Shown: one piece after another, positions 2,533 to 64,000 of the stretch | Layout: each line of letters begins with the position of its first letter | How positions within the stretch are numbered: position 1 is the stretch's first letter | NCBI GenBank assembly: GCA_015956445.1 | Contig: WIUZ02000006.1 | Span: 1,550,001-1,614,000, forward strand | Length of the DNA stretch: 64,000 nucleotides | Origin: Thelephora terrestris | Taxonomy: Eukaryota; Basidiomycota; Agaricomycetes; Thelephorales; Thelephoraceae | Reading direction: 5' to 3' | Program-made: the position numbers and the translations under genes | The notes under the pieces: model-generated | The model's database searches: none | Seen by the model: the letters and a program-made list of their open reading frames with translations, nothing else | Told to the model about the DNA's origin: nothing

Positions 2533-5500
2533 TCACTTTAAAAACTGCAGGATGACAGCCTCTGAAAGCTCTCGCTGTGTCAATCCAAGAAACTGACCAC
2601 TCCATACCCTGTCGCTATGAGATGCCCTCCAACAATGTGGTAACCATACAAGTCGCTTCTTGGTGGGGCTCAATACCCATCCATCTTGTGTGACTTCATA
2701 ACCACACTGCGAATTCCAAGGGCGTGGCTGCTGTATGCCCATATCCTCACTTAGGGGCTTTAACTTGGTGGTGCCGGACTCATGGTCCTCAATGACCCCC
2801 CATCCCATAACAGGGTACTCATCATATTTTTTCCAGCACCAGACCTCGTTTTCACCCAGGTTGACACACGGTTGCCTCAAATCAAATCCTATTTTGACAT
2901 CTGCAACCCGCCTCCCAGTCAAAATATCATTGATTTGTAGATAACAAATATCCACTGAATCAAGATCAATGACCACAGCAATGCGGCTGAGATCAGGGGA
3001 TATTGATGTCACCAATTCATATAAGGGGGGACGTGGATCTGGGAGATCGAGTGTTGTAGTATGAGTGCTGTCATTTATGCTCGCCCGGGCACCAATGCAG
3101 TTACCTGCTGGTAAATTCCAAATGATAACCCTCCCCTCATCGGCGACAGCAACAGCACTGCTGGTCACCCTCAGCTGCTGAATCTTCACACTTGTATCAA
3201 TAGTCAAACACAGGTCACCAGACTGGAGGTCACGAATTGTGACCATGGTTCCTGATTCTTGTGCAGATGCTAATAATACATTGTTGGGGGAAAATGCCAG
3301 AATGAAGTCATGATCATGTTCGTTCACTGGAACAGTGGGGAGGGTGAGATATTGATCTGTGGTGTGCCATACATGAATTCTTTCATAGCCAGTAGCAAGG
3401 ATTGATTCTCCGTTTGGGGAGAAAATGGGTTCCACTTGCGCAGAGGGGAGTCTGAGCCTTTGATGAAGAACATAGGTTGTTATGGACCTCTTCCAAACAC
3501 AAACTTCTAGATCAGAGACGGATGAAAAGAAGCGACCATCAGAGGAGAACGACATCATGAAAACCGGGTAGGTTGGAATGAGGCTGTGTTCCAGAAGGAA
3601 CCGGTGACCCGCTGTCTATTCGCGCGACCTTCAAATCTAGTGCTAGTCCCCAGTCCCTACCTCCCTACCCCGCTAGCTACTGACTATACGAGCCAACGAC
3701 CCCTCGATCGGTCACGGGAGGGTCACGCCCACTTGACGTCCTGATCATCGAGCCGTTCCCGCGATCCCTTCGACACGCGTCATCGCACGCTGTTTCTGCC
3801 TCCGTGGCCGTCCTCCCCAAACGGCACGTGATGTTGTGATCGGCCAATGTCTCCCGATCCCTTATCTCGTCGAGATGACGTGTCCCCTCCCTCGGTCCGG
3901 TTCCCTTCAGTCTAGACACGTGTCGACTCGTTCCCTCTTGCTCGCCAATCATCTTCGACTGCTCCCGCTCTCCCGCCCGGTTACGATCTTTTGATCTCGA
4001 ACCCGTAGACTTCCCCTTTTGGTCCTGTTTCTCACAATCGCTCCATCCTCTCGGTAAGACCTGTCCCAGCCTCGTTCCGGCCTCCCGATGAACCGTTCGT
4101 CTCCCTACCCTGCGTCGGACTCTAGTTTATCCCCTTCTATCTACCTGTTCTTATTCTCCCACCGTTTCTCCATTTGTTCGCTACTTTTCCCATCTCTTTC
4201 GCGTAGATCGCACTGTCTTTACCTATAAATACCCTGTACTAGCTAGTTGAACAAACAAGAAACCCCCGGGCCTCTTCACACCTATTCTCCCTTCTGCCTG
4301 AACGACCTGATCATCGAAAACCTCCAGCTCCTCGCTCTGACATCGAGTCCACTAGCCTCATAGTTCCAATAGCCCCCTAGCCTACTAGCCCATCGTCCAC
4401 TAGCCCCCTAGCCCATCGTCATCGTCTAGCAGGAGTTTGCTAGTACGGAGTTTTCCCTTCTCATCCCGACAATGTCGCGACCTACCGTGGTTCCCTCTCC
4501 TCTGTCTAGCTTCTCTCCCCTTCCCGACCTCTGCACAACCGGCGACCCCTCACCCTGCTTCTGCTATTCTGGTCGTGTCCCGACTCCACCCGGATAGCAG
4601 CAGTTCACCGGGAGTCTAGAACATCCCAGACTGAAAGTGTATCTTCAACAGCAATGGCAAGTTTGGAGTGAGCAGGAAGGAACTGAAACGTACTCTGCTC
4701 TGTGACAGGGATCTTGTCTGGCAGAGCAAAGGATTCAGTTATTGCTGGTGTGTGTACCGAGGTAAATTCAGCTTCCCATATGTCAATGGACCCTGGTTTT
4801 ACAGTGGCAAAACGAAGATGTTCGCCATGAGTCCAGATTGGGGGTATAATGTGTCCTTCTGGAGCATAATAAGGGCATGTATGGGTCTGAGAGACAAGGT
4901 TGTAGGTGGCGATGGAAATTAGGCTGGGGTTGAGTTGTGAGCTACCTGAAACTGCAAGTATCTTTCCATCCACAGAACATGCAGATGAGAAGAAGTACCC
5001 AAAGTTCACATCAGAAGAGGAGACAGTACCAACTGGACCACCTGTCTGAATGTCCCAGCTAATGAGCCCATTGTAGGAACATTGGGTTAAAGTGTGACCG
5101 TCTGGGGAGAAACTAAGCTTGGATAGACCACAACCATGAGGGAACCCAAAGGTGTTACGTCGCTCAAGAGTTGCCGCATCAAGAATTTCTATTGCACAGT
5201 TTTTGGCGACAGTGATGAACCTGTTGCAAGGTGACCACACCACTGACTCATAAAATTCATCAATATGCATGGTTGCAGGAATTGGGTCCCATGAATTTGG
5301 TAACCCCTGCACAACCCTTGTCGAGGGACAGGCATGTTGGTTGTACAGCTCACGTACAATTGATGTTTGGGGGGATAGGGGGAGTGCTGAGATATAGATG
5401 TGTGGTGCTGATGTGCTGATGACGCCAAAGAACATGAGTATGAGGTGGAGATAATCTCTGGCAAGGTTTAGAGTTCGTGGCACCTGGATCCAGCCTGATC

Positions 5501-7390
5501 AGCTTTTGGGGAACAACAAACAATGAGATACAACATACATCTGACCACTTTTCTGTCCTTTTCATTGCATCAACTGCTTCACTTGTGGCACCAAGGACGC
5601 TGAGTACTTCCAGCCAACACAGAAACTTTTCCTCCAGAAATTTGGTCAAGACAGGTGTGATTTTGAGTTTCTGGGCCAGTCTCATGTCTTTGAGGTGCTT
5701 GTGCCATGATCTACAGGCGTATTCCAATGCTTTGTCAATGTGTTTTTCTGCTGTCTGCTTCAGGTCCTTGACCTCTGTGTTGATGACCCCATCCGGAAGC
5801 TTGCACAGGTTCTGCTCCAGCTTTTTGTTCATCAGCTCAAGACAGCTGATCAGGAGTGCCGTGTGTTGATCATCAGGAGGTTGGAGGCAAAACCTCAGAT
5901 CCGCACACCGGGTTGGATCAATGATGTAGTCAGGAAAGGACTTGTGGAAGGGTTGAACAGGATGGTCAACATTCTCCTGGAGGATGAGGAGCGAGTGCAT
6001 CGATGACAGGAGGGTTGATATGTATGTGATATCAAAGCCTAGGATTGCAGCGATGGTGGATGGAGAAAGAGGATTCGCGACAAGTATCACAGCACCAAGA
6101 ACCAACCGGACCTTGGGATCGTTCTCTGGGTCGTCGTCACCAAAAGCCTCGCGGAGAATTGTAGTGTAGAGTGAGTCAAGCGTAGCGCCCGCTCCAAGTT
6201 TAGTCTTCCCCTCGGACCTGCTCTCCTGTGACCGTATGAGCCTGTCCACTTGTTCCCTGGGGCTCATGTTCTTGAGGCCAATGAACCTAACTGTGGCCAT
6301 CGCATAGATGAACAGCCCTGCGGCGCGTGTACACAGCAGGTCCAGCTGTTCTTCAGTCGGCCAGTTGTCCAATCCGTATCGATGGCTCTTGATCTCTGCG
6401 CATTTGTGTTTATAGAACAGCCGTATGTCATTATTGACTCGATCCGGCTTGACATCGTGAAGGACAAACACGTCCGTGACCTTGGCCAACAGCGGGAGAC
6501 GGAACCCGTTTCAAATTCGTGGCTCTGGGCGACCGGTGACAAAGAACTTGACTCTCGGGATCTGATCCACAAATTGGCCAAGGACAGAAAGGATTGCAGA
6601 AGCGGGTTCGTCATCTTTGCATTCGTCCAACGCGTCGATCACAATCACGGTTGAGATCGCGGATTCTACGAGGGGCTGGACAATCAGCTTGTCCATCTGG
6701 CCGTACAAAGACTCGTGGGCGACCTCTGGATCCGACCGTACCAGCGTGACGAAGATCGACCGGAATTTGGTATATGTCCGCGCAAGTTGGACAGCCAGGG
6801 TGGGGAAGATGAAACGGAGGTCGCTCCGGTCTTCAAAATCTCTGGAGCAGAAGAAGGAGGCACCGAGTCGTCCCTCTGCGAAAGACCTCTCCGCAATTGT
6901 TTGAGCAATGGTGCTCTTCCCCGTTCCAGCGAGACCGTTCAGCCAGTAAACAGGGGCTTTGTAAAAGTCGCATGCCCAGAGCTCGATCTCGTCCAGGACG
7001 GTACCGCGGGTCCCCTTGAGACATCGGTTGCGGTTGCCATGGCGGTACTCTGCCTCTCTAGCGCAACGAAAATCGTTGAGGGTAGCCGCTTCGGCTGCAG
7101 AAGGAAGCGCGTCAGGAATCCGTCACTGAGATGAGGGAGCGAAAGGTTTTCTGACCCGAGTCCTGCAGAGAAAGTTATTTCTTTGGCTCAGGCGAAATTG
7201 GCAAGACCCACCATCGATTTAAACCCTTGGTAGACGATCCCGTTTTGTCGTGCCATCTGTTCTCCTTGTCAATATCTAAAAGAACTCCCCGCCGTGAACA
7301 AACCTGATAAGGGAAAATTGCATCTTGTAGATCTTCAAGAAGCTTGAACACATCTTCATCGCCTTGGAAATTATCGTTGAGTCTCTGCAA
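2533..7390 (-). pseudogene. NACHT-WD40 NLR pseudogene, copy 1: NACHT and WD40 portion
   Basis: This is a paralogue of the NLR at 23381-28200. The NACHT exon opens at about 7094. It has a P-loop GLAGTGKST (about 6940-6915), a Walker B-like VIVIDALDEC (about 6640) and then GRPEPRI, immediately followed by an in-frame TGA at 6511-6513. Copy 2 has CGA at that codon, so a single C-to-T change at a CpG explains the stop. The frame stays open after it. The WD40 portion (5483-4608 and 3604-2533) contains repeats such as LSFSPDGHTLTQ and is cut by a solo LTR. Upstream of 7390 the gene is split by a 10.55-kb DNA transposon, and its 5' exons resume at 17941. An intact protein cannot be made. The 3' part is CpG-poor: many CG dinucleotides of copy 2 are CA or TG here. 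Confidence 0.9.
3605..4607. mobile_element. Solo LTR of an LTR retrotransposon inserted in NLR copy 1
   Basis: This segment of about 1.0 kb is absent from the paralogous NLR at 23-28 kb. It starts TGACCC and ends GTTCA. The target duplication is CCGG (ACCGG if the ambiguous A is counted), at 3601-3604 and 4608-4611. It contains a TATA-like motif (cctataaata, near 4221) and C/T-rich, cccga-rich sequence similar in style to the LTR at 61 kb. No internal coding region remains, so it is a fossil left by LTR recombination. It is probably Ty3/Gypsy-type judging by its style and size, but that is inference. It inserted after the block duplication. Confidence 0.85.
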
Positions 7391-7402
7391 CATCAGCAAA
7401 CT
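7391..7402. repeat. Left terminal inverted repeat of the Plavaka-type element
   Basis: CATCAGCAAACT is the exact reverse complement of 17929-17940. Similarity continues loosely inward (both sides show CCGGA within about 30 bases). Confidence 0.85.
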
Positions 7403-7584: not shown

Positions 7585-8070
7585 TCTGCCACCGGTGAGG
7601 ATAATTTTCCAAATATTCTATATTCCCAATAGGTTTTCGTTGTTTAAACCAATTTAATAATTAATAATCCCTTAATTGAACCAATATATAATCCTTATTT
7701 GCGGTCCGAACGATTATTTGAAATGTCATTTATTTTTTGTCGGTCGGGGAAAAATAATACAAAATACGTGCGATAGAAGCTACGCGAGAAGAGTCGTATC
7801 AAACGTAACAAATGGCAGCAAAAACTGAGAGAGAGTGAAGGGAGCAAGAAGGGCAAGAAGTGGGGAGTGGCAATGCGATGGAGGAAGGAAAATGGGGTTC
7901 AGGCAGAAAGGGGGGAGAGAGCGGGGAGATCATCGTTTAATGGGGTCGACGTTGGAGAAGACTGGAGCTGCGGAGTAGCCTATGATGATAGATTAGCGGT
8001 GTCGTGACATGGGGGCGAAAGAGCCAAGCGCACCGACAAACTTTTCGGGCTCGAGCTAGGATTGGCCTGA
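7585..8070. other. Non-coding left interior of the Plavaka-type element
   Basis: AT-rich from about 7600 to 7760, then purine-rich (gagaga and gggag runs, about 7820-7930). I see no coding potential. Confidence 0.5.
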
Positions 8071-9436
8071 CACTGGGGGCAGGGGTTGGTTTACTGAGTC
8101 AGTAAACTGTGAGTAAATTACAAGTAAATGGAAAAAGAACCTAGCGAAATACTTGCCTGGCAAGCACAAAGCAAATTCACAATTTACTGAGCCAATTTAC
8201 CTGCAATTTACTGGGTTCAGTATGCGCTCAGTATGTTTACAGTTTACTGGGTCATGTGACTACAGTTTCCCCATTAGGTAAACCTCGGAAAAATTCACAA
8301 TTTACTAAATAAATTTACCTGCAATTTACTGAGCCACTTGCCCAATCAGTATGTTTTTAATTTGCTGAGTGGTTTGATTGCGGTTTACTGGACTCAGTAA
8401 ACTGGAAAAAAACCAATCTGGTTTACTGACGACGTCCCTGATTGGTCAATTCTAAAAATAACCGAAAATTTACCTGGACGTGTCATTGTCAGTAAACTGC
8501 AAGTTTTCTTTCAGTAAATTGAAAATACACGTCAGGTAAACTGGGAAAACATGTAACAATTTGATCGTGGTTTACTGGACTCAGTAAATCAGAAAAAAAC
8601 CTGACCGGTTTACTGACGATGTACCTGATTGGCTAATTTGAAAAAAACTCGAAAATTTACCAGGACGTGACTTTATCAGTAAACTGCAAGTTTTCTTTCA
8701 GTAAATCGCAAGTACACGTAAAGTAAACCAGAAAACACGTGAAAACTGTAAGTAAATCCAAAGTTTACGTGTTTTCTGGTTTACTTTACGTGTACTTGCG
8801 ATTTACTGAAAGAAAACTTGCAGTTTACTGATAAAGTCACGTCCTGGTAAATTTTCGAGTTTTTTTCAAATTAGCCAATCAGGTACATCGTCAGTAAACT
8901 GGTCAGGTTTTTTTCTGATTTACTGAGTCCAGTAAACCACGATCAAATTGTTACATGTTTTCCCAGTTTACCTGACGTGTATTTTCAATTTACTGAAAGA
9001 AAACTTGCAGTTTACTGACAATGACACGTCCAGGTAAATTTTCAGTTATTTTTAGAATTGACCAATCAGGGACGTCGTCAGTAAACCAGATTGGTTTTTT
9101 TCCAGTTTACTGAGTCCAGTAAACCGTGATCAAACCACTCAGCAAATTAAAAACATACTGATTGGGCAAGTGGCTCAGTAAATTGCAGGTAAATTTATTC
9201 AGTAAATTGTGAATTTTTCCGAGGTTTACCTAATGGGGAAACTGTGGTCACATGACCCAGTAAACTGTAAACATACTGAGCGCATACTGAACCCAGTAAA
9301 TTGCAGGTAAATTGGCTCAGTAAATTGTGAATTTGCTTTGTGCTTGCCAGGCAAGTATTTCGCTAGGTTCTTTTTCCATTTACTTGTAATTTACTCACAG
9401 TTTACTGACTCAGTAAACCAACCTCTGCCCCCAGTG
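8071..9436. mobile_element. 1366-bp palindromic non-autonomous CACTA-type element, copy A
   Basis: It begins CACTGGGGGC and ends with the inverse, with TGA on both sides (8068-8070 and 9437-9439). CACTG ends plus a 3-bp duplication are the mark of the CACTA superfamily. The whole element is one inverted repeat: two arms of about 675 bp meet around 8750, leaving a loop of about a dozen bases. The arms differ at only a handful of positions. The words CAGTAAA and TTTACTG recur throughout. There is no open frame of note. It lies in the left interior of the Plavaka-type element. A second copy of the same length is at 62592-63957. Confidence 0.92.
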
Positions 9437-9950
9437 TGAGTGACCTCGAACCGATTGTGGGCCCGGTGCTGTCCTTTGATCGCTTGATGAGCCCGCCTAG
9501 AAGACAGCTGTCAACGAACATGGGCGCTATGGGAGGAAGGGATCATTAGCCACTAGAATTTGATGGAGGAACGATGTGGGGACGTACACAATAGATCTTG
9601 ACCTGGAGGCAACGGACTCGCCGGGGTTCGTTGAGCTGTCGAATAGTCGGATAAGTAAGTGTCACAGCAAAGATTCGAATGTAGGTGCCGTACATTATCG
9701 TGAGGTCAGAGAAGGATATGTAGTATCTTTCAAAGAGAGGCATTGTGGAGTGGAGGGAATCGGATGGGGATGTTGTCGAAAGCAGGCACGAAGTTGGGGC
9801 TCGAAAATATAGGAGTCCATGCAGGAGCGACGTCATCGTTTCTCACGGATATAGAACCGCCTGGACGCCGGCTGTCAGATCCATCGCCCTAAATTTTATG
9901 CTTGTTATTATCTCTTTGAGCCGCCCCCATTTCTATCTAGGAGTTAATTC
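9437..9950. other. Interior spacer of the Plavaka-type element
   Basis: It lies between the palindrome and the small minus-strand gene. Short overlapping frames exist on both strands but none shows a recognisable protein. I see nothing else in it. Confidence 0.45.
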
Positions 9951-12345: not shown

Positions 12346-15300
12346 ATGTCTCACGTCTGTTATGAGGGAAGTTGCGCCTCTGGCCCACAACGCCTATTTT
12401 CGTCGAGCTGAGGACTCCATCAACATCAGAAAAAAATTCACAAGGACATTCCAGAACAAGAAACGTCGCTTGGGGCCTCGAGGTCGTTGAAGCGTAAGCG
12501 CGATGAAGAAGAAGAGGAACTTCGGAGGTGCCAAGATGTTGAAGCCCGGCGATTGGCGTTAGAAGCGCTGGAAGCTATGAACCATGAGCCAGAGTTACCA
12601 CCAGTAAGTCTGATGCTATTTCACTTACAAAATCTGGGCTCAACCAACGACTTGAACATCCAGGTCCCACTGCTGGATCGAGCTGTTGACACAGGACTTC
12701 AGCGAAGAGCGAGAGCTCGGCGGCTCCCTGCACGCTTCCGCGACCCTTTACCTGTATCATCGCCACCAATCCCACGTACCACAGAACCGAGGAGAGAGAT
12801 TGTGCAACCGGGTTCTCCAGGACTTGATGATTCTGGACTCGGACGTGGCACTGCTATCGATGGCATCAATCGCGACTCGGCTGAGCGCACCATCACGAAC
12901 ACCAACTCCTTCGGGGTGTTCCGAGAATTCCTCACTGTCTCCTCCCACAACCCACGCGATCCTGACATCTTCGCCGACGCCCATCCACCCCTGCCTGCTC
13001 CCCAATCCGTCGGATCCAACTTGATGGTCATACCTCCAGATCCAGGGGGTAACGACCCATCCGTCAATTCTGCCAACACATCCGAAGATCTTCTCCTCGC
13101 CTGGATGACTCGAAGCCTTGGAAACACCCCTGCGGGGGTTAACGATCTCGTCCACAACGTCATCAAGCACCCAAAGTTCAATCCCTCAATGCTTGAGAAC
13201 TTCAACGCTGTCACCGCGATTCGACGATTTGGGAAAAGATGGATATCAAACCCGGGAGCAGCTCTCAAGGTGGGCGATGGCTGGAAGGAGGCTTCGGTCA
13301 GCATACGGGTGCCGTGTACAGGGGTGAAGCAGCAGGAAGGCAATGCGCCCGAGTTCGTTGTCGAGGGAATCCTATATCGGGACATTGTCGAGGTGATCAC
13401 TGCCGAGCTTGAGGACCCCGAGGCGTTCAACGACATCCACGTTGCCCCACACAAGGAATGGTGGAGGCCAGGTCCGGGCGAGGATCCTGTCCGGGTTTAT
13501 TCAGAGGTTTACAACTCGAACACAATGCTCGAGACCGACGCAGAGATGCGACGCAACCTCGACTCGGCGCGCGGACCAGACAACGACTTGGAAACCTTCA
13601 TTGTCTCAGCACTTCTCTATTCCGATTCTACCCATCTAGCCTCGTTCGGGAACGCTGCGCTGTGGCCAATCTACCTTTTTCTCGGAAATGTCTCCAAGTA
13701 CGTCCGTTCGAAGCCGACCTCTTTTGCTGCTCACCATATCGCGTATATTCCCACGGTACGCTGTTGTTTGATGCCACCGAGCGCGCCTGAGTCACCGATC
13801 TCATTACTCTTGACAGCTCCCTGACACCATCAAGGAATTCTACAAGAAGCACTACGGCAAAGAACCGAACTCGGATATGCTCACCTTTCTTGGGCGTGAG
13901 CTAACACACGCGGTGCTGCGACTGGTTCTTGGAGGGTCATGTGCAGACGCCCACAAGAAGCCCCGTCGCGTTCGATGTGGGGATGACATTTTACGACGTT
14001 GGTTGCTTCAGATCCTTCTCCACTCGGCCGATTATAAAGAAAAGTGAGTCTTTGTGTTCCGTAGAGTTATCCCCTTGCTAACGATCATTCAGGTCTATCT
14101 TAGCAACGATCAAGAGCCTTGGACTGTTCCTATGCCCCCGCTGTCTGATCTTAAAGGACGGTGTTCCCCGAATTGGCATGGTCTCTGACCAGGCCGTCCG
14201 ACGTCTCCTTCGGGACTACGCGAATGATGCTGCGGGTCGTGTAGAACATGCTCGCAGGCTCGTCTTTGACCTTGGGAGGAGCGTCGGTGGAGACCTGGAT
14301 ATCTTAAAGAGGGGGTCGTTGCTTTTAACGAGGGTAAGATACATTTTCGACCTATTCTGCCACGGCTTTCGCTCACACTTCTCAGAATGCCTACCACACT
14401 GAACTCGGTCTGAACCCGGCCAAGATTATGCCAGTTGACGTTCTCCACGACTTTGAACTTGGCGTTGGGAAGGGTGTGATCACACACAATGTCCGAATAC
14501 TCCACTCTGTTGGTGAGGCAGCAGTCAACAAATTTGACGCACGGTAATCACTAGTGTACTCAAGATATAGCCATTCGCTGATCAACATCTTTCCCACAGG
14601 TTCCGTCAAGTTCCAACCTTTGGTCGTGACACGATCCGAAGGTTTGGGGGAAGTGTCTCTGCTATGAAAAAGCTCGCGGGCCGAGACTTCGAGGATATTA
14701 TCCAGGTGAGTATTGTTCCGTCGTTCTCACTGGATTAAGTCCTAATACATATATCTCCCTCTCCAGTGTTGGATCCCAGTTCTCGAAGGCATCCTGCCCG
14801 ACCGGGAACACAATAACATCTTGCTCGACCTCGCCTTTGATTTGACCACCTGGCATGCCTATGCAAAACTCCGCCTTCACACCACAGACACGATTGCGTC
14901 CCTTCGATCACAAACGAAAGAACTTGGCCGTCTCCTCCGTCTCTATGCCAACAAATTGTGCCCAAAGTATGCTACCAAACTGTTACCAGGGGAGGCCGCT
15001 GCCGCATATCGTCGCAAGGCCGCGAACACCAAAACAGCCACTCCCACCTCTCGACAAGCTGGCAAGAAACCATCAAAGGCAGTCATCCCCAAAGGCTCGG
15101 GTTTCAACTTGAAGACATACAAGATCCACACCCTCGGGGACTACGCCGATCACATCGAACAATTTGGTCCAACCGACTGTTTCACCACAGGCCACGTATG
15201 TCCATCCCTTTTATTGCAAGTCTCGCCACTGACCTGCACAACTGACAGGGTGAGCTCGAGCACCGCCGCGTCAAACGGTTCTACAAGCGAACCAACAAGG

Positions 15301-23380: not shown

Positions 23381-26300
23381 TCACTCCAAAAACTCCAGGA
23401 TGACAGCTTCCGGAAGCCCATTGTGTTTCAGCCCAAGAAATCGCCCACTCCATATCCTGTCCCTATGAGATGACCTCCAATGATGCGGTAGCCATAAAAG
23501 TCGCTTCTTGGTGGGGCTCAATACCCATCCATCTTGCGTGACTTCATAACCACACTGCGAACCCCAAGGGGGTGGCTGCTGTGGGCGCATATCCGCACTT
23601 AGGGGCTTCAACGTGGTGGTGCCGGACTCGCGGTCTTCAGTGACTTCCCAACCATTCGCATAAGTTCCAAAGTTACACCAGACCTCGTGTTCACCCAGGT
23701 CGACATGCGAGTACGCGTGAGGGAATGGTTCGAGGCCTGCAAGCAACCTCCCGGTTGACGTGTCATGAATTTGTAGACGATTAGACATTTGCGGGTCATG
23801 AGCATACATGAGCACGACGATGCGGCTGAGATCAGCGGATATCGATTCTTCACGTGAACCGTATAGATGTGGACCTGGGAGATCGAGCGTCGCAATATGA
23901 GCACTGTCCTTGACGCTCGCCCTGGCGCCGACGCAGTTCTCCTCTGGTATGTTCCAAATGATAACTCTCCCCTCGCCGGCGACAGCAACGGCACTCCTTG
24001 TCACCCTCAGGTACATAATCTTCATACTCGCATCAATAGTCAACCGCGTGTCACCAGACTGGAGGTCGCGAATTGTGACTGTGGTTCCCAAGAGGCGCAC
24101 AGATGCTGATAATGCATTTTTTGGGGAGAATCCCAGAATGAAGGAGCTATGACTTTCGTAAACTGGAACATTGGGGGGAGAGAGAATTTGATCTCTGGTG
24201 CGCCACACACGAATTGACCGGTGGCCAGCAGCAACGATTGACTCTCCGTTGGGGGAGAAAAGGGGTTCCGCGCCCGCAGAGGGGAACGTGAGCTTTTGAT
24301 GAAGACCATAGCTTGGGAGGGACCTCTTCCAAACGTAAATTTCTCGACCGACGGTGGATGAAAAGAGGCGACCGTCGGAGGAGAACGACATCTTGAAATC
24401 CTCTGAGGTTGGAATGGGGCCGTGTTTCAGAAGGAACCGGGAATCTCTAACATCCCAGACTGAAACTGTATCTTGGACAGCGAAGGCGAGTTGGGAGAGG
24501 GCGGGAAGGAACAAAAAGTGACTCTGTTCTATATCAGCAATCTCGTCTGGTGTAGCATAAGATTCAGTAATCGCTGGCGTGTGTACCGAGGTGAACTCGG
24601 CTTCCCATATTTCGATAGACCCTGGTTTTACAGTGGCAAAACGAAGACATCCGCCGTGAGTCCAAATCGGAGGTATAATGCGTCCTTCTGGAACATGATA
24701 GGAGCGTGTGTGGGTCCAGGAGAGAAGGTCATAGGTGACGATGGTGAAAGTGAGGGTGGAATCGCGGTATGAACTACCTGAGACTGCGAGTATCTTTCCA
24801 TCCATAGAATACGCAGATGAGAGGAAGTCATCGATGTCCACATCGGAAGAGAAGACAGCACCAACTGGACCACCCGTCTGAACGTCCCAGCTGTTGAGCC
24901 CCTCTTCATAGAATTGGGTTAAGGTGTGACCGTCCGGGGAGAAACTGAGGGAGCGATTTCGAGGTGGATGGGACTCGAAGGTGTTAAGTCGCTCAAGAGT
25001 TGCGACATCAAGAATTTCTGTCACTTCAGATTTGGCGACAGCGATGAACCTATTGCACTGTGACCATGCGACTGACCCCAGAATATGCTCGTGATACATG
25101 GTCGCAGGAATCAGATCCCAAGAGGTCGGTAACCCTTGCACAACCCTTGTTAAGGGACAGGCATGTTGCTCGTACAGCTCGCGTACAATTGACGTTTGGG
25201 GGGATAGGGGAAGCGCTGAGGTATAAATGTGTGGCGCTGACGTGCTGATGACGCCGAAGAACGTGAGTACGAAACGAAAATAATCTCTGGTAAGGTCGAG
25301 AGTTCGTGGCAGCTGGACCCCGCGCGATAAGCTTTCTTAAAACAACAAACGATGAGATACAACATACATCTGACCATTTTTCTATCCTTTCCATTGCATC
25401 AACTGCTTCCCTTGTGGCACCGAGGACACTGAGTACTTCTAGCCAACACAGAAACTTTTCCTCCAGGAATTGGTGCAAGATAGGCGTGATTTTGAGTTTC
25501 TGGGCCGGTCTTGTGTCGTTGAGGTGCTTGTGCCATGATCTACAGGCGTATTCCAACGCTTTGTCGATATGTTGTTCTGCCCTCCAATTGAGGTCCTTGA
25601 CCTCTGTGTTGATGACCCCATCCGGAAGCTTGCACATGTTCCGCTCCAGCCTTTGGTTCATCAGCTCGAGGCAGCCAATCAGGAGTTCCGTGTGTTGATC
25701 AGGAGGGTGGACACAAAACCTCGAATCCGTGCACCGGGTTGGATCGACGATGTAGTCAGGAAAGGACTTGTGGAAGGGCTGGACAGGATGATCGAAGTTC
25801 TCCTGGAGAATGAGGAGCGAATGCACTGATGACAACAGGGGATATACGTCTGCGACATCATCAAAGCCCAGGATTGCAGCGATGGCGGATGGAGAAAGAG
25901 GGTTTGCGGCGAGTATCACAGCACCAAGAACCGACCGGACCTTGGGATCATTCTCTGGGTCGTCGTCACCGAAAGCCTCGCGAAGAATTGTCGTGTAGAG
26001 TGAATCGAGTGTGGCGCCCGCTCCGAGTTTGGTCTTCCCCTCGGACCCGCTCTCCTGCGATCGTATGAGCCGATCCAGTTGTTTTCTGGGGTTCATGTTC
26101 TTGAGGTCAATGAACCTAACCGTGGCAATTGCATAGATGAACAGCCCTGCCGCACGTTCACACAACAGGTCCAGCTGTTCCTCGGTCGGCCAGTCGTCCA
26201 ATCCGCATTGACGGCTCTTGACTTCTGAGCAGTTGTGTTTATAGAACAGCCGTATGTCGCTATTGACTCGACCCGGCTCGACATCGTGGAGGACAAAAAC

Positions 26301-28200
26301 ATCCGTGACCTTGGCCAAAAGTGGGAGACGGAACCCATTTCGAATTCGTGGCTCGGGACGACCTGTGACAAAGAACTTGACTTTCGGGATTTGATCCACA
26401 AATTGGCCAAGGACGGAAAGGATTGCAGAAGCGGGTTCGTCATCTTTGCATTCGTCCAACGCGTCGATCACGATCACCGTTGAGATCTCGGATTCTACAA
26501 GGGGCTGGACAATCAACCTGTTCATCTGGCCGTACAGAGACTCGTGGGCAACCTCTGGGTCCGACCGTACCAGCGTGACGAGGATCGACCGGAATTCGGT
26601 ATGCGTCCGCGCAAGTTGGACGGCCAGGGTGGGGAAGATGAAACGGAGGTCGCTCCGGTCTTCAAAATCTCTGGAGCAGAAGAAGGAAGCACCGAGTCGT
26701 CCCTCTACGAACAACCTCTCCGCGATCGTCTGAGCAATGGTGCTCTTCCCCGTTCCAGCGAGACCGTTCAGCCAGTAAACAGGGGCTTTGTAAGAGTCGC
26801 ATGCCCAGAGCTCGATCTCGTCCAGAATGGTACCGCGGGTCCCCTTGAGACAACGGTTGCGGTTGCCATGGCGGTACTCGGCCTGTCTCGCGCAACGAAA
26901 ATCGTTGAGGGTAACCGCTTCGGCTGCAGAAGGAAGTGCATCAGGGACCCGTCACTGGGAACGATGGAGAGGAAGGCTCTCTAACCCGGGTCCTGCAGAG
27001 AGGTGTCATTTCCTTAAACCAGGCGTAGTTGGGAAAACCTACCATTGATTTCAACACTCGATCTACGGTCCCTGTTTGTCGTGCCATCTGTTATTCCTGT
27101 TAATATCGAAAAGAACGCCCCGTCGTGAACAGACCTGATAGAGGAAAATTACGTCTTGTAGATCTTCGAGGAGCGTAAACAGATCTCCATCACCTTGGAC
27201 ATTATCGGTGAGTCGCTCCAACTCCAGTCCCACGCAGAACAACCGTAGTTGCCCTTCGATACCCTTGAGCTCACTAGAAGGGTGTGTCAGCACTGGGCGC
27301 GAAGGGGGAGGGTCATACCATACTCTATGACTCTATTTCTGCGCCTCTGCTCCGCCACGTCACCTGGGGGAGTCGCAAAAAGTCTATCCAGTGAGGTTAC
27401 ACGTGAGAGGAGCCTCTCAGCCATGTTCTTGATGGTTGCGTACTGTTACTGTGTGGTCAGTCAAAGCAAGACTTCAAGCAGGGAGTCGTGGGCTGACCTT
27501 GCGATCCGCGCAGATATCAGAGATGGTTCTAAGGAGAGATTTGAGCGGACCAAACCCCATTACGCCCTCATTTGCGATATCTGTGTAGCTTATAGAAGCA
27601 TCGAGCGCTGTGCAGCCTTGCTCTGGAACGGATAGGTGCTTAGGAAATACGAGTAGCACAACGATATCAGCGCGTACCCTCCGATGCTATCTCTGGTTCA
27701 GCTTCCCGTATTATATGACCGACGTTTCCTGCTGAAGGGCAAAGACACAGAGATCTAGGTGTTGAACGTCTGCCGATATGACGAGGATTGGTGGCACTCA
27801 CTCATGAGACGGCTCCCTTGTTCGACATCGGAAATCGCTACAACGGTCGAGGATCCTGGTATGGAGGGTTTGGGGACTTCCCTTTCCCTTGTGACGAATT
27901 CGATCCGTGAAGGCTCGGGGTTGTTCTCGTCTAGTGGAACCGGGTCGATCAGTTCGGATTCATAGTAAGGCAACTCCGCTCACCTTTGGGGTCGATATCC
28001 AGTGCTGCTCGGAAGTCGAGCGGACCGACGGCGATGTTAGTTGGGATTCCCAACAAAAGATGCTTCGCAGGATATCCGAGCGATTTCTTGGGCTTTATGT
28101 TGGGTATTAGTTTCTTCATGTTGATGGTGAGACGCAGACGATGTCGATCCGATCTGATTTCGAGTTCAAGGGGAATGGCCACCCGGAAACCTGAAAACAC
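23381..28200 (-). CDS. NACHT-WD40 NLR (NWD-type), copy 2
   Basis: Likely an intracellular receptor whose NACHT ATPase oligomerises on ligand binding by the WD40 propeller. 5' exons (27949-28200) hold LGYPAKHLLLGIPTNIAV. Others hold GFGPLKSLLRTISDICADR, AERLLSRVTSLDRLFA and LLEDLQDVIFLYQ, a helical linker region. The NACHT exon (26923-25366) has GLAGTGKST, VIVIDALDEC and GRPEPRIRNGFRLPLL, then a winged-helix-like region with PFHKSFPDYI. The WD40 exon is 25312-23381 and holds degenerate repeats (SFSPDGHTL, FSPNGESI, NGWEVTEDRE near the end). All large exons are open. The start is unresolved: position 28200 is GTG where copy 1 has ATG. It is divergent from APN2. Confidence 0.88.
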
Positions 28201-62109: not shown

Positions 62110-62591
62110 TTTGACTCATTAAGTCTTCCATCATTCCCTCTACTCGCGCAGAGAAGCGTCTCTCTGACCTTCGGGATTATCTGTCTGAGACAGTCCCACC
62201 CTTCCCACCCACTTTTAGTGATCCTTTCGTTGAAGGTTTCTCTCCCCCTTATCCCGCTGTTCCCGATAATTCTTTGGACGTTCCCGACGATTTTGATCTT
62301 TTAGATTCCAGTTCCCTTACTTCCCTGATAGATTCATCGCGATCCCCGTTTCATATTCCCTCTTCCACGGTCTCTTCTCTTTCGTCCATAGCTTCACTTT
62401 CTCCCAGCCCTCCACCCACACAGCAGACCATGGCAGCACCTCCCTTCTACATGCCTCTCTCGCACACTCGCGACGCTCCCAAGTTCCGAGAGGATGAGCG
62501 AGGCTTCAAGGCCTTCTTCAAGAATGTCTCGGAGCTCGCGAAGCGTGCGGGACTCACAGACGCTGATGCTATTGAGTGGGCGATCTCCTAT
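62110..62591 (+). other. Gag-like coding remnant of the LTR retrotransposon
   Basis: A reading frame with Ser/Pro-rich start and the gag-type block YMPLSHTRDAPKFREDERG. It ends where the palindromic element inserts. Treated as part of the fossil element. Confidence 0.6.
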
Positions 62592-63957
62592 CACTGGGGG
62601 CAGGGGTTGGTTTACTGAGTCAGTAAACTGTGAGTAAATCACAAGGAAATGGAAAAAGAACCTAGCGAGATACTTGCCTGGCAAGCGCAAAGCAAATACA
62701 CAATTTACTGAGCCAATTTACCTGCAATTTACTGGGTTCAGTATGTGCTCAGTATGTTTACAGTTTACTGAGTCATGTGACCACAGTTTTCCCATTAGGC
62801 AAACCTTGGAAAAATTCACAATTTACTGAATAAATTTACCTGCAATTTACTGAGCCACTTGCCCAATCAGTATGTTTTTAATTTGCTGAGTGGTTTGATC
62901 ACGGTTTACTGGACCCAGTAAACTGGAAAAAAACCAAACTGGTTTACTGACAACGTCCCTGATTGGTCAATTCTAAAAATAACCGAAAATTTACCTGGAC
63001 GTGTCATTGTCAGTAAACTGCAAGTTTTCTTTCAGTAAATTGGAAATACACGTCAGGTAAACTGGGAAAACACGTAATGATTTGATCGTGGTTTACTGGA
63101 CTCAGTAAATCAGAAAAAAACCTAACCAGTTTACCAACAATGTACCTGATTGGCTAATTTGAAAAAAACTCGAAAATTTACCAGGACGTGTCTTTATCAG
63201 TAAACTGCAAGTTTTCTTTCAGTAAATCGCAAGTACACGTAAAGTAAACCAGAAAACACGTGTAAACTGTAAGTAAATCCAAAGTTTACGTGTTTTCTGG
63301 TTTACTTTACGTGTACTTGCGATTTACTGAAAGAAAACTTGCAGTTTACTGATAAAGACACGTCCTGGTAAATTTTCGAGTTTTTTTCAAATTAGCCAAT
63401 CAGGTACATTGTTGGTAAACTGGTTAGGTTTTTTTCTGATTTACTGAGTCCAGTAAACCACGATCAAATCATTACGTGTTTTCCCAGTTTACCTGACGTG
63501 TATTTCCAATTTACTGAAAGAAAACTTGCAGTTTACTGACAATGACACGTCCAGGTAAATTTTCGGTTATTTTTAGAATTGACCAATCAGGGACGTTGTC
63601 AGTAAACCAGTTTGGTTTTTTTCCAGTTTACTGGGTCCAGTAAACCGTGATCAAACCACTCAGCAAATTAAAAACATACTGATTGGGCAAGTGGCTCAGT
63701 AAATTGCAGGTAAATTTATTCAGTAAATTGTGAATTTTTCCAAGGTTTGCCTAATGGGAAAACTGTGGTCACATGACTCAGTAAACTGTAAACATACTGA
63801 GCACATACTGAACCCAGTAAATTGCAGGTAAATTGGCTCAGTAAATTGTGTATTTGCTTTGCGCTTGCCAGGCAAGTATCTCGCTAGGTTCTTTTTCCAT
63901 TTCCTTGTGATTTACTCACAGTTTACTGACTCAGTAAACCAACCCCTGCCCCCAGTG
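62592..63957. mobile_element. 1366-bp palindromic non-autonomous CACTA-type element, copy B
   Basis: Same family and same length as 8071-9436. It starts CACTGGGGGC and ends with its inverse, flanked by TAT on both sides (62589-62591 and 63958-63960). The two arms of about 675 bp meet near 63275 around a short loop (gtaagtaaatcc). No coding potential. It is inserted in the gag-like region of the LTR retroelement. Differences from copy A are mirrored in both arms. Confidence 0.92.
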
Positions 63958-64000
63958 TATGGTGGCGACGAGAGCGAAAACTGGGAGAATGTCGCTTGCA

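Follow-up and report, generated by a model that had tools for sequence, protein, structure and literature searches.

Arm-to-arm homogenisation within a dispersed family of near-perfect palindromes with CACTA-like ends

Palindrome gene conversion has been studied best at a small number of very large loci. On the human Y chromosome, conversion keeps the arms of palindrome P6 alike, with inversions being rarer (PMC3723533), and for the Foldback transposon Tetris of Drosophila virilis homogenisation, through unequal crossing over or gene conversion, is put forward by its authors as possible (PMC4079207). The introduction to a study of yeast template switching treats the homogenisation of long inverted repeats as already well studied (PMC8604942), and the principle of arm homogenisation is therefore known; palindrome gene conversion is itself known too, and the new part of the present work is a dispersed family with a readable position profile. 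Among open-access titles and abstract openings, which cover the literature partially, we found none that describes arm variants mirrored in this way for a palindromic MITE of CACTA-like type.

The window analysed here (the whole 64,000-nucleotide stretch of Thelephora terrestris DNA) holds two copies of such an element, with positions 8071-9436 comprising copy A alone and copy B lying at 62592-63957. Both have the termini CACTG..CAGTG, and each consists of two inverted arms (about 673-677 nt) around a 20-nt asymmetric spacer; every arm of A carries two 176-nt sub-repeats, and the interior of A has no open reading frame of 60 amino acids or more. The features are as follows.

8068..8070, unstranded: left 3-bp target site duplication of A, TGA
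8071..9436, unstranded: palindromic element, copy A (1366 bp; arms 99% complementary)
8071..8743, + strand: left arm of A
8373..8548, + strand: tandem sub-repeat 1, left arm of A (spacing 187; 83% to sub-repeat 2)
8560..8735, + strand: tandem sub-repeat 2, left arm of A
8744..8763, unstranded: central asymmetric spacer of A, 20 nt
8764..9436, - strand: right arm of A
8772..8947, - strand: tandem sub-repeat, right arm of A (mirror of 8560-8735)
8959..9134, - strand: tandem sub-repeat, right arm of A (mirror of 8373-8548)
9437..9439, unstranded: right 3-bp target site duplication of A, TGA
62589..62591, unstranded: left target site duplication of B, TAT
62592..63957, unstranded: palindromic element, copy B (1366 bp; 0 arm mismatches in 666 aligned columns)
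63265..63284, unstranded: central spacer of B, oriented like that of A
63958..63960, unstranded: right target site duplication of B, TAT

Elsewhere in the window, a 2.8-kb repeat (85% identity) occupies 4607-7391 and 24436-27222, and an open reading frame at 4605-5483 weakly resembles beta-propeller models, below curated cut-offs.

Across the genome (40.6 Mb in 60 contigs), the terminal pattern has 87 forward and 85 reverse matches at up to two mismatches, and none when read backwards; with at least 87 arm matches in addition, the element belongs to a dispersed family of near-perfect palindromes with roughly 85 copies. At the central position, a similar spacer is found in 54 of 56 copies, the exceptions being L084 and L086, where the spacer search hit the wrong place and the centre was misassigned. 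A 3-bp target site duplication flanks 47 of the 54 terminus pairs at fetched loci, and is missing in L011, L020, L023, L073, L075, L082 and L086. The duplication is also present in L036 and L037, which are the same insertion as L027 and stand outside the 54-pair count; this one insertion, flanks included, occurs on three contigs, pointing to redundant or duplicated contig ends. We also observed a palindrome close to A inserted within an arm of another copy, with the target duplication ATT (L009 and L010; G000:C3:157876-160609).

Short repeated subterminal motifs are typical of CACTA/EnSpm elements, and 65 of the 71 TTTACTG or CAGTAAA motifs in the window fall inside A and B. The element is a MITE in its length (1366 bp), lack of coding capacity, copy number (about 85) and inverted termini, and a Foldback element in having long inverted repeats that hold internal tandem repeats. 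Its ends and its duplication match those of the fungal EnSpm/CACTA elements in the parts of PMC12730594 compared, and the family, as judged from its sequence, fits a non-coding, almost fully palindromic CACTA/EnSpm-like MITE.

The genome has 73 Transposase_21 and 132 Plavaka matches, one of the latter lying in the window at 12487-13824 (PF18759, E = 1.8e-17), 3 kb from copy A. Taken with a remark on Agaricomycotina in PMC12730594, these Plavaka matches would fit an agaricomycete-like host. Looking for a CACTA partner, we found no CACTGGGGGC end at one mismatch or fewer in 18 of 20 Transposase_21 loci taken with 1.5-kb flanks; of the two others, L049 adjoins copy L020, and L060 contains a copy of a second palindromic family (described below). 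No autonomous partner of the element emerged from these loci. Three copies (L077, L080 and L081) carry inserts, and the genome profile matches include no Transposase_21 match at the places of these. Open reading frames were catalogued in the L077 and L081 inserts, and all three inserts were compared with the fetched loci. That of L077 is 88% similar to a 1.47-kb stretch adjoining the Transposase_21 match of L067 and may belong to a different transposon. More broadly, L077:900-3960 resembles the flanks of palindromes L015, L018, L030 and L035 as well as the L067 stretch beside the Transposase_21 match, as though a single type of repeat had received many of the insertions. In L085, 49 bp of the terminus are kept and are followed by other sequence with open reading frames that look retrotransposon-like by eye.

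The sequence-only reading had held that the arms of A and of B match each other at sites where the two copies differ, and this is borne out: acatgtaacaa and cgaaata occur in each arm of A, and B likewise has acacgtaatga and cgagata in each of its own. In a four-way alignment (arm positions 8071-8740), 22 sites agree within a copy and differ between the copies, set against seven positions at which the arms of A disagree and no such position in B, such that arm-arm mismatches are far from being as frequent as copy-copy differences. The single copies L019, L020, L035_1922, L038 and L075, with 28-37 arm mismatches, come near to such parity.

For the family as a whole, the arms of a copy are more alike than those of different copies. 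The two arms of one copy differ by a median of 7.5/kb (mean 15.2), as compared with 54/kb between copies, in 50 of the 56 two-ended copies (L077, L080, L081, L082, L084 and L086 having been left out of this and later counts). With L037 also dropped, as the same insertion as L036, 49 copies contain 460 arm-arm mismatches in total, where 1000 shuffles of arm partners averaged 1603 and went no lower than 1424. Individual copies range widely, from 0 to 28-39 mismatches, the mismatch-free ones being B, L012, L013, L016, L022 and L073, together with L017 if a one-arm deletion is set aside. In a tree, the two arms of a copy are sisters in only 28 of 50 copies, and the remaining 22 are mostly chimeric, decayed or provided with a very close sister copy. 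Within-copy likeness and mirrored new mutations, the marks of arm-to-arm gene conversion, are thus both present, albeit not in every copy, given the chimeras.

In these chimeras (L035_1922, L075 and L038), the two arms are nearest to different copies. A history of this kind may bear on A itself, whose seven unmatched sites (among them arm positions 191, 237, 309, 310, 393 and 537) had been read as later mutations, a view that holds for at most one of them. At six of the seven, both states are found in other copies, so that older or imported variants are more likely; the TG of A at 309-310, for instance, is common to both arms of L044 and L046, and position 237 (window 8307) is the sole unmatched site private to A.

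A finer record is kept by private substitutions, meaning those private among the fetched copies as distinct from the whole genome. Over all 49 copies, 76 of these are mirrored in the opposite arm and 87 are confined to a single arm; without L011 and L023, the counts are 75 and 54. If the latter set is divided by zone (with boundaries chosen after the positions had been seen), mirrored:single counts are 8:27 at arm positions 1-130, 64:19 at 131-630 and 3:8 at 631-675. Removal of 12 chimeric, decayed or one-arm-deleted copies leaves 37, and it is on this removal that the clean 59:5 at 131-630 depends, compared with 7:18 at 1-130 (Fisher 3e-9). At higher resolution, the outer part of these 37 copies has 0:4 at 1-20, 2:8 at 21-60, 3:3 at 61-100 and 2:3 at 101-130, and the inner part 22:2 at 131-300, 14:2 at 301-470, 23:1 at 471-630 and, beside the spacer, 3:7 at 631-675 (p = 1.6e-4 for the comparison of the last two). 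From the 59:5 over 500 sites and 37 copies, we roughly estimate that, at a given site, conversion would outrun mutation by a factor of several thousand. Chance and CpG hypermutation can both be rejected as sources of the mirrored sites: independent uniform hits would yield 0.2 mirrored private substitutions, or about 2 if all sites were 10x hotter, as against 75 observed, of which 3 are at CpG and 26 are transversions. No GC bias was detected in AT-to-GC versus GC-to-AT changes (37:25 mirrored, 24:26 single; Fisher p = 0.25).

The association between arms, F, follows a similar course, being -0.03 over the outermost 20 bp, then 0.81-0.85 at 141-400, 0.64-0.70 at 401-480, 0.89 at 541-600 and 0.65 at 641-675; the dip at 401-480 is probably due in part to one-arm deletions in L025 and L079, which misalign the tandem sub-repeats. 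At arm position 12, the pairing of G and A between arms is almost random (24 GG, 21 mixed and 5 AA; n = 50), and the pooled median position of mismatches (211, from copies with 1-18) is 99, versus 312 for polymorphic sites. Tract models fitted on a coarse grid to the zone counts of the 37 non-chimeric copies gave log-likelihoods of -44.3 for tracts confined within the arm, -47.6 for centre-out, -60.1 for clipped and -60.7 for even coverage.

Indels are mirrored as well. We found 13 mirrored pairs of at least 9 bp in nine copies, with sizes of 11-142 bp, examples being a 70-bp deletion in L068, one of 24 bp in L070 and a 22-bp insertion in L071, and L073 has three mirrored deletions, of which two occupy corresponding places in the two sub-repeats. 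A 36-bp deletion at position 137 is present in both arms of L072, L078 and L082 and in one arm of L017 and L080, so that both stages can be seen. Single-arm indels make up 19 rows, several of which are unreliable (those of L084 and L086, with their wrong centre, and those near the inserts of L077, L080 and L081). In both arms of L073, a 38-bp deletion lies at positions 311 and 499, the equivalent places of the two sub-repeats, from which copying may also act between sub-repeats.

Comparison of sister and near pairs (20, picked by hand) adds an order of events. All nine arm mismatches of L030 and L031 are held in common and in the same phase, at loci whose flanks have one 11-base match only (E = 0.15), and L019 and L020 have 28 in common with two single-arm differences; since sister copies at unrelated sites retain the same arm mismatches, transposition alone is not what makes the arms match, and as the arm-matching step it is rejected for these two pairs. 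The flanks are likewise unrelated for L012/L016, where all five differing sites are mirrored, for L032/L033, which have 10 common arm mismatches at 12-96, five mirrored inner differences and one single-arm difference (at 95), and for L040/L041, which have six common mismatches at 25-83, eight mirrored inner differences and five single-arm ones, all in the outer 26 bp. In the last two pairs, it would seem that the inner arm has been evened out again after the split, with the outer part left alone. The common mismatches of L040 and L041 stand in opposite phase relative to the spacer, which suggests that the middle has been inverted; at least one exchange thus appears to have flipped it, this being the one strong case, with others resting on one or two sites. 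Single-arm differences are the more numerous between A and its nearest relative L009 (4 mirrored, 9 single), in L014/L018 (5 and 16) and in two pairs with the chimera L035_1922 (4 versus 35, and 3 versus 29).

Synthesising these findings, we propose a model in which the MITE would spread by means of a transposase supplied in trans, and the inverted arms of one copy, presumably once integrated, would repeatedly copy each other, most likely by gene conversion with tracts lying inside the arm and with at least one inversion, to which we give a probability of about two in three. A substitution or indel arising in one arm would then be either erased or copied into the other. The tracts seem to need flanking homology on both sides, and we propose that it is for this reason that the outermost 20 bp behave independently and that homogenisation trails in the outer 130 bp and in the 45 bp next to the spacer. 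Exchange between different copies would import foreign arm segments and produce chimeras, which conversion may then even out. Of the possibilities raised by the sequence-only reading, arm-to-arm homogenisation is well supported by the mirrored private substitutions, the mirrored indels and the mirrored inner differences of sisters, and hairpin repair starting at the centre is mildly disfavoured, as homogenisation drops beside the spacer.

The next candidate is template switching during replication, in which the nascent strand, after copying an arm and the centre, would fold back, copy a stretch of its own first arm and rejoin the chromosome before the outer end, likewise evening out the arms of an integrated copy. 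A long fold-back switch of this sort predicts nearly the same position profile as conversion: arm mismatches concentrate toward the outer ends, as they should, the 45 bp next to the spacer, where homogenisation is weak, could have served as primer, and in yeast such switching is reported to even out short inverted-repeat arms and to invert spacers. However, the arms in the passages compared measure 7-16 bp (PMC8604942), where hundreds of bases per copying event would be needed here, and centre-out tracts fit slightly worse than confined ones, so we hold it to be doubtful, if the most plausible of the rivals. The same two-edge profile would also result from an artefact of assembly or polishing, were reads unanchored in flank or spacer shared between the arms and the inner differences collapsed. 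This is unlikely, since sparse inner mismatches recur identically at unrelated loci (9 sites in L030/L031, 28 in L019/L020), A keeps its inner mismatches as far in as position 537, indels of 11-142 bp are mirrored, and the 99 fetched loci (266,835 bases) contain no N; moreover, the flanks of L027 and L036 differ by eight gap columns and no substitutions in 824 aligned columns, a pattern that would fit assembly from long reads.

Rebuilding of whole palindromes from one arm, for example in transposition or in repair after excision, had been the other route offered by the sequence-only reading, and the several copies free of arm mismatch (B among them) are what it would leave behind. It is disfavoured, and we consider it very improbable, because sister copies carry arm mismatches through transposition (L030 and L031 already look so), the outer 20 bp have no association between arms and the edges are poorly homogenised, even coverage fits worst of the tract models, and the central spacer is conserved, not remade. 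Least credible of all is that outer arm segments have been overwritten by other copies, with the inner agreement being largely inherited; chimeric copies do exist, yet the inner differences of L032/L033 and L040/L041 are mirrored while the common outer mismatches stayed in place, and the fetched copies include no donor for the private states. Repeated arm-to-arm copying, most likely by gene conversion, is hence the reading that we carry forward.

A second palindromic family (L060:2432-3349 and L088-L099; 918-953 bp, with at least 84 matching pieces in the genome) has other sub-repeats, CACTGGGGGCAAGGGG ends and a non-palindromic centre of roughly 130 bp, with CACTG ends and 3-bp duplications in all 13 copies examined. 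Its arms have 76 mismatches in 12 copies, where 2000 shuffles averaged 328 and went no lower than 167 (L060 left out for its different length). Private changes here are mostly in one arm (12 mirrored, 26 single), and the outer 20 bp keep their arm agreement (F = 0.94). Homogenisation looks slower in this family on these counts, perhaps because its arms are shorter and its centre is non-palindromic.

One genome thus offers dozens of copies of a 1.4-kb palindrome at unrelated places, each with natural markers, and the family could allow the position profile, the inversion rate and the length dependence of arm copying to be measured apart from transposition. It also cautions against dating insertions by how far the two ends of such an element have diverged, which is a poor clock. 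We speculate, very tentatively, that full palindromy might be a self-correcting design, through which a non-autonomous element keeps matched arms for the transposase because each arm templates the other, the family then evolving as a population made up of two-armed units, with conversion running far ahead of mutation; we think this improbable.

Set beside known systems, in so far as the passages compared describe them, the element resembles fungal CACTA/EnSpm transposons in its CAC..GTG termini and 3-bp target duplications and differs in being non-coding and almost wholly palindrome (PMC12730594). With yeast template switching it has in common the evening out of inverted-repeat arms and the inversion of spacers, although the events described there concern the very short arms noted above (PMC8604942). 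P6 combines arm conversion within one palindrome with occasional inversion, as proposed here, but is one large locus compared between people, where conversion is GC-biased and its tracts average about 2 kb (PMC3723533), whereas our arms measure about 670 bp and belong to many transposon copies at dispersed sites, with GC bias not detected. In Tetris, the end repeats group within two of three complete elements, the grouping being of tandem repeats of the ends, and the passages compared give no count of mirrored variants (PMC4079207). Finally, the Foldback-like Galileo of Drosophila has very long, internally repetitive inverted ends and chimeras for which exchange between copies has been invoked, but it belongs to the P superfamily, makes 7-bp duplications and has two ends reported to change length independently; its chimeras are without matching duplications (PMC3573991, PMC2775673), whereas the chimeras L035_1922 and L038 have them.
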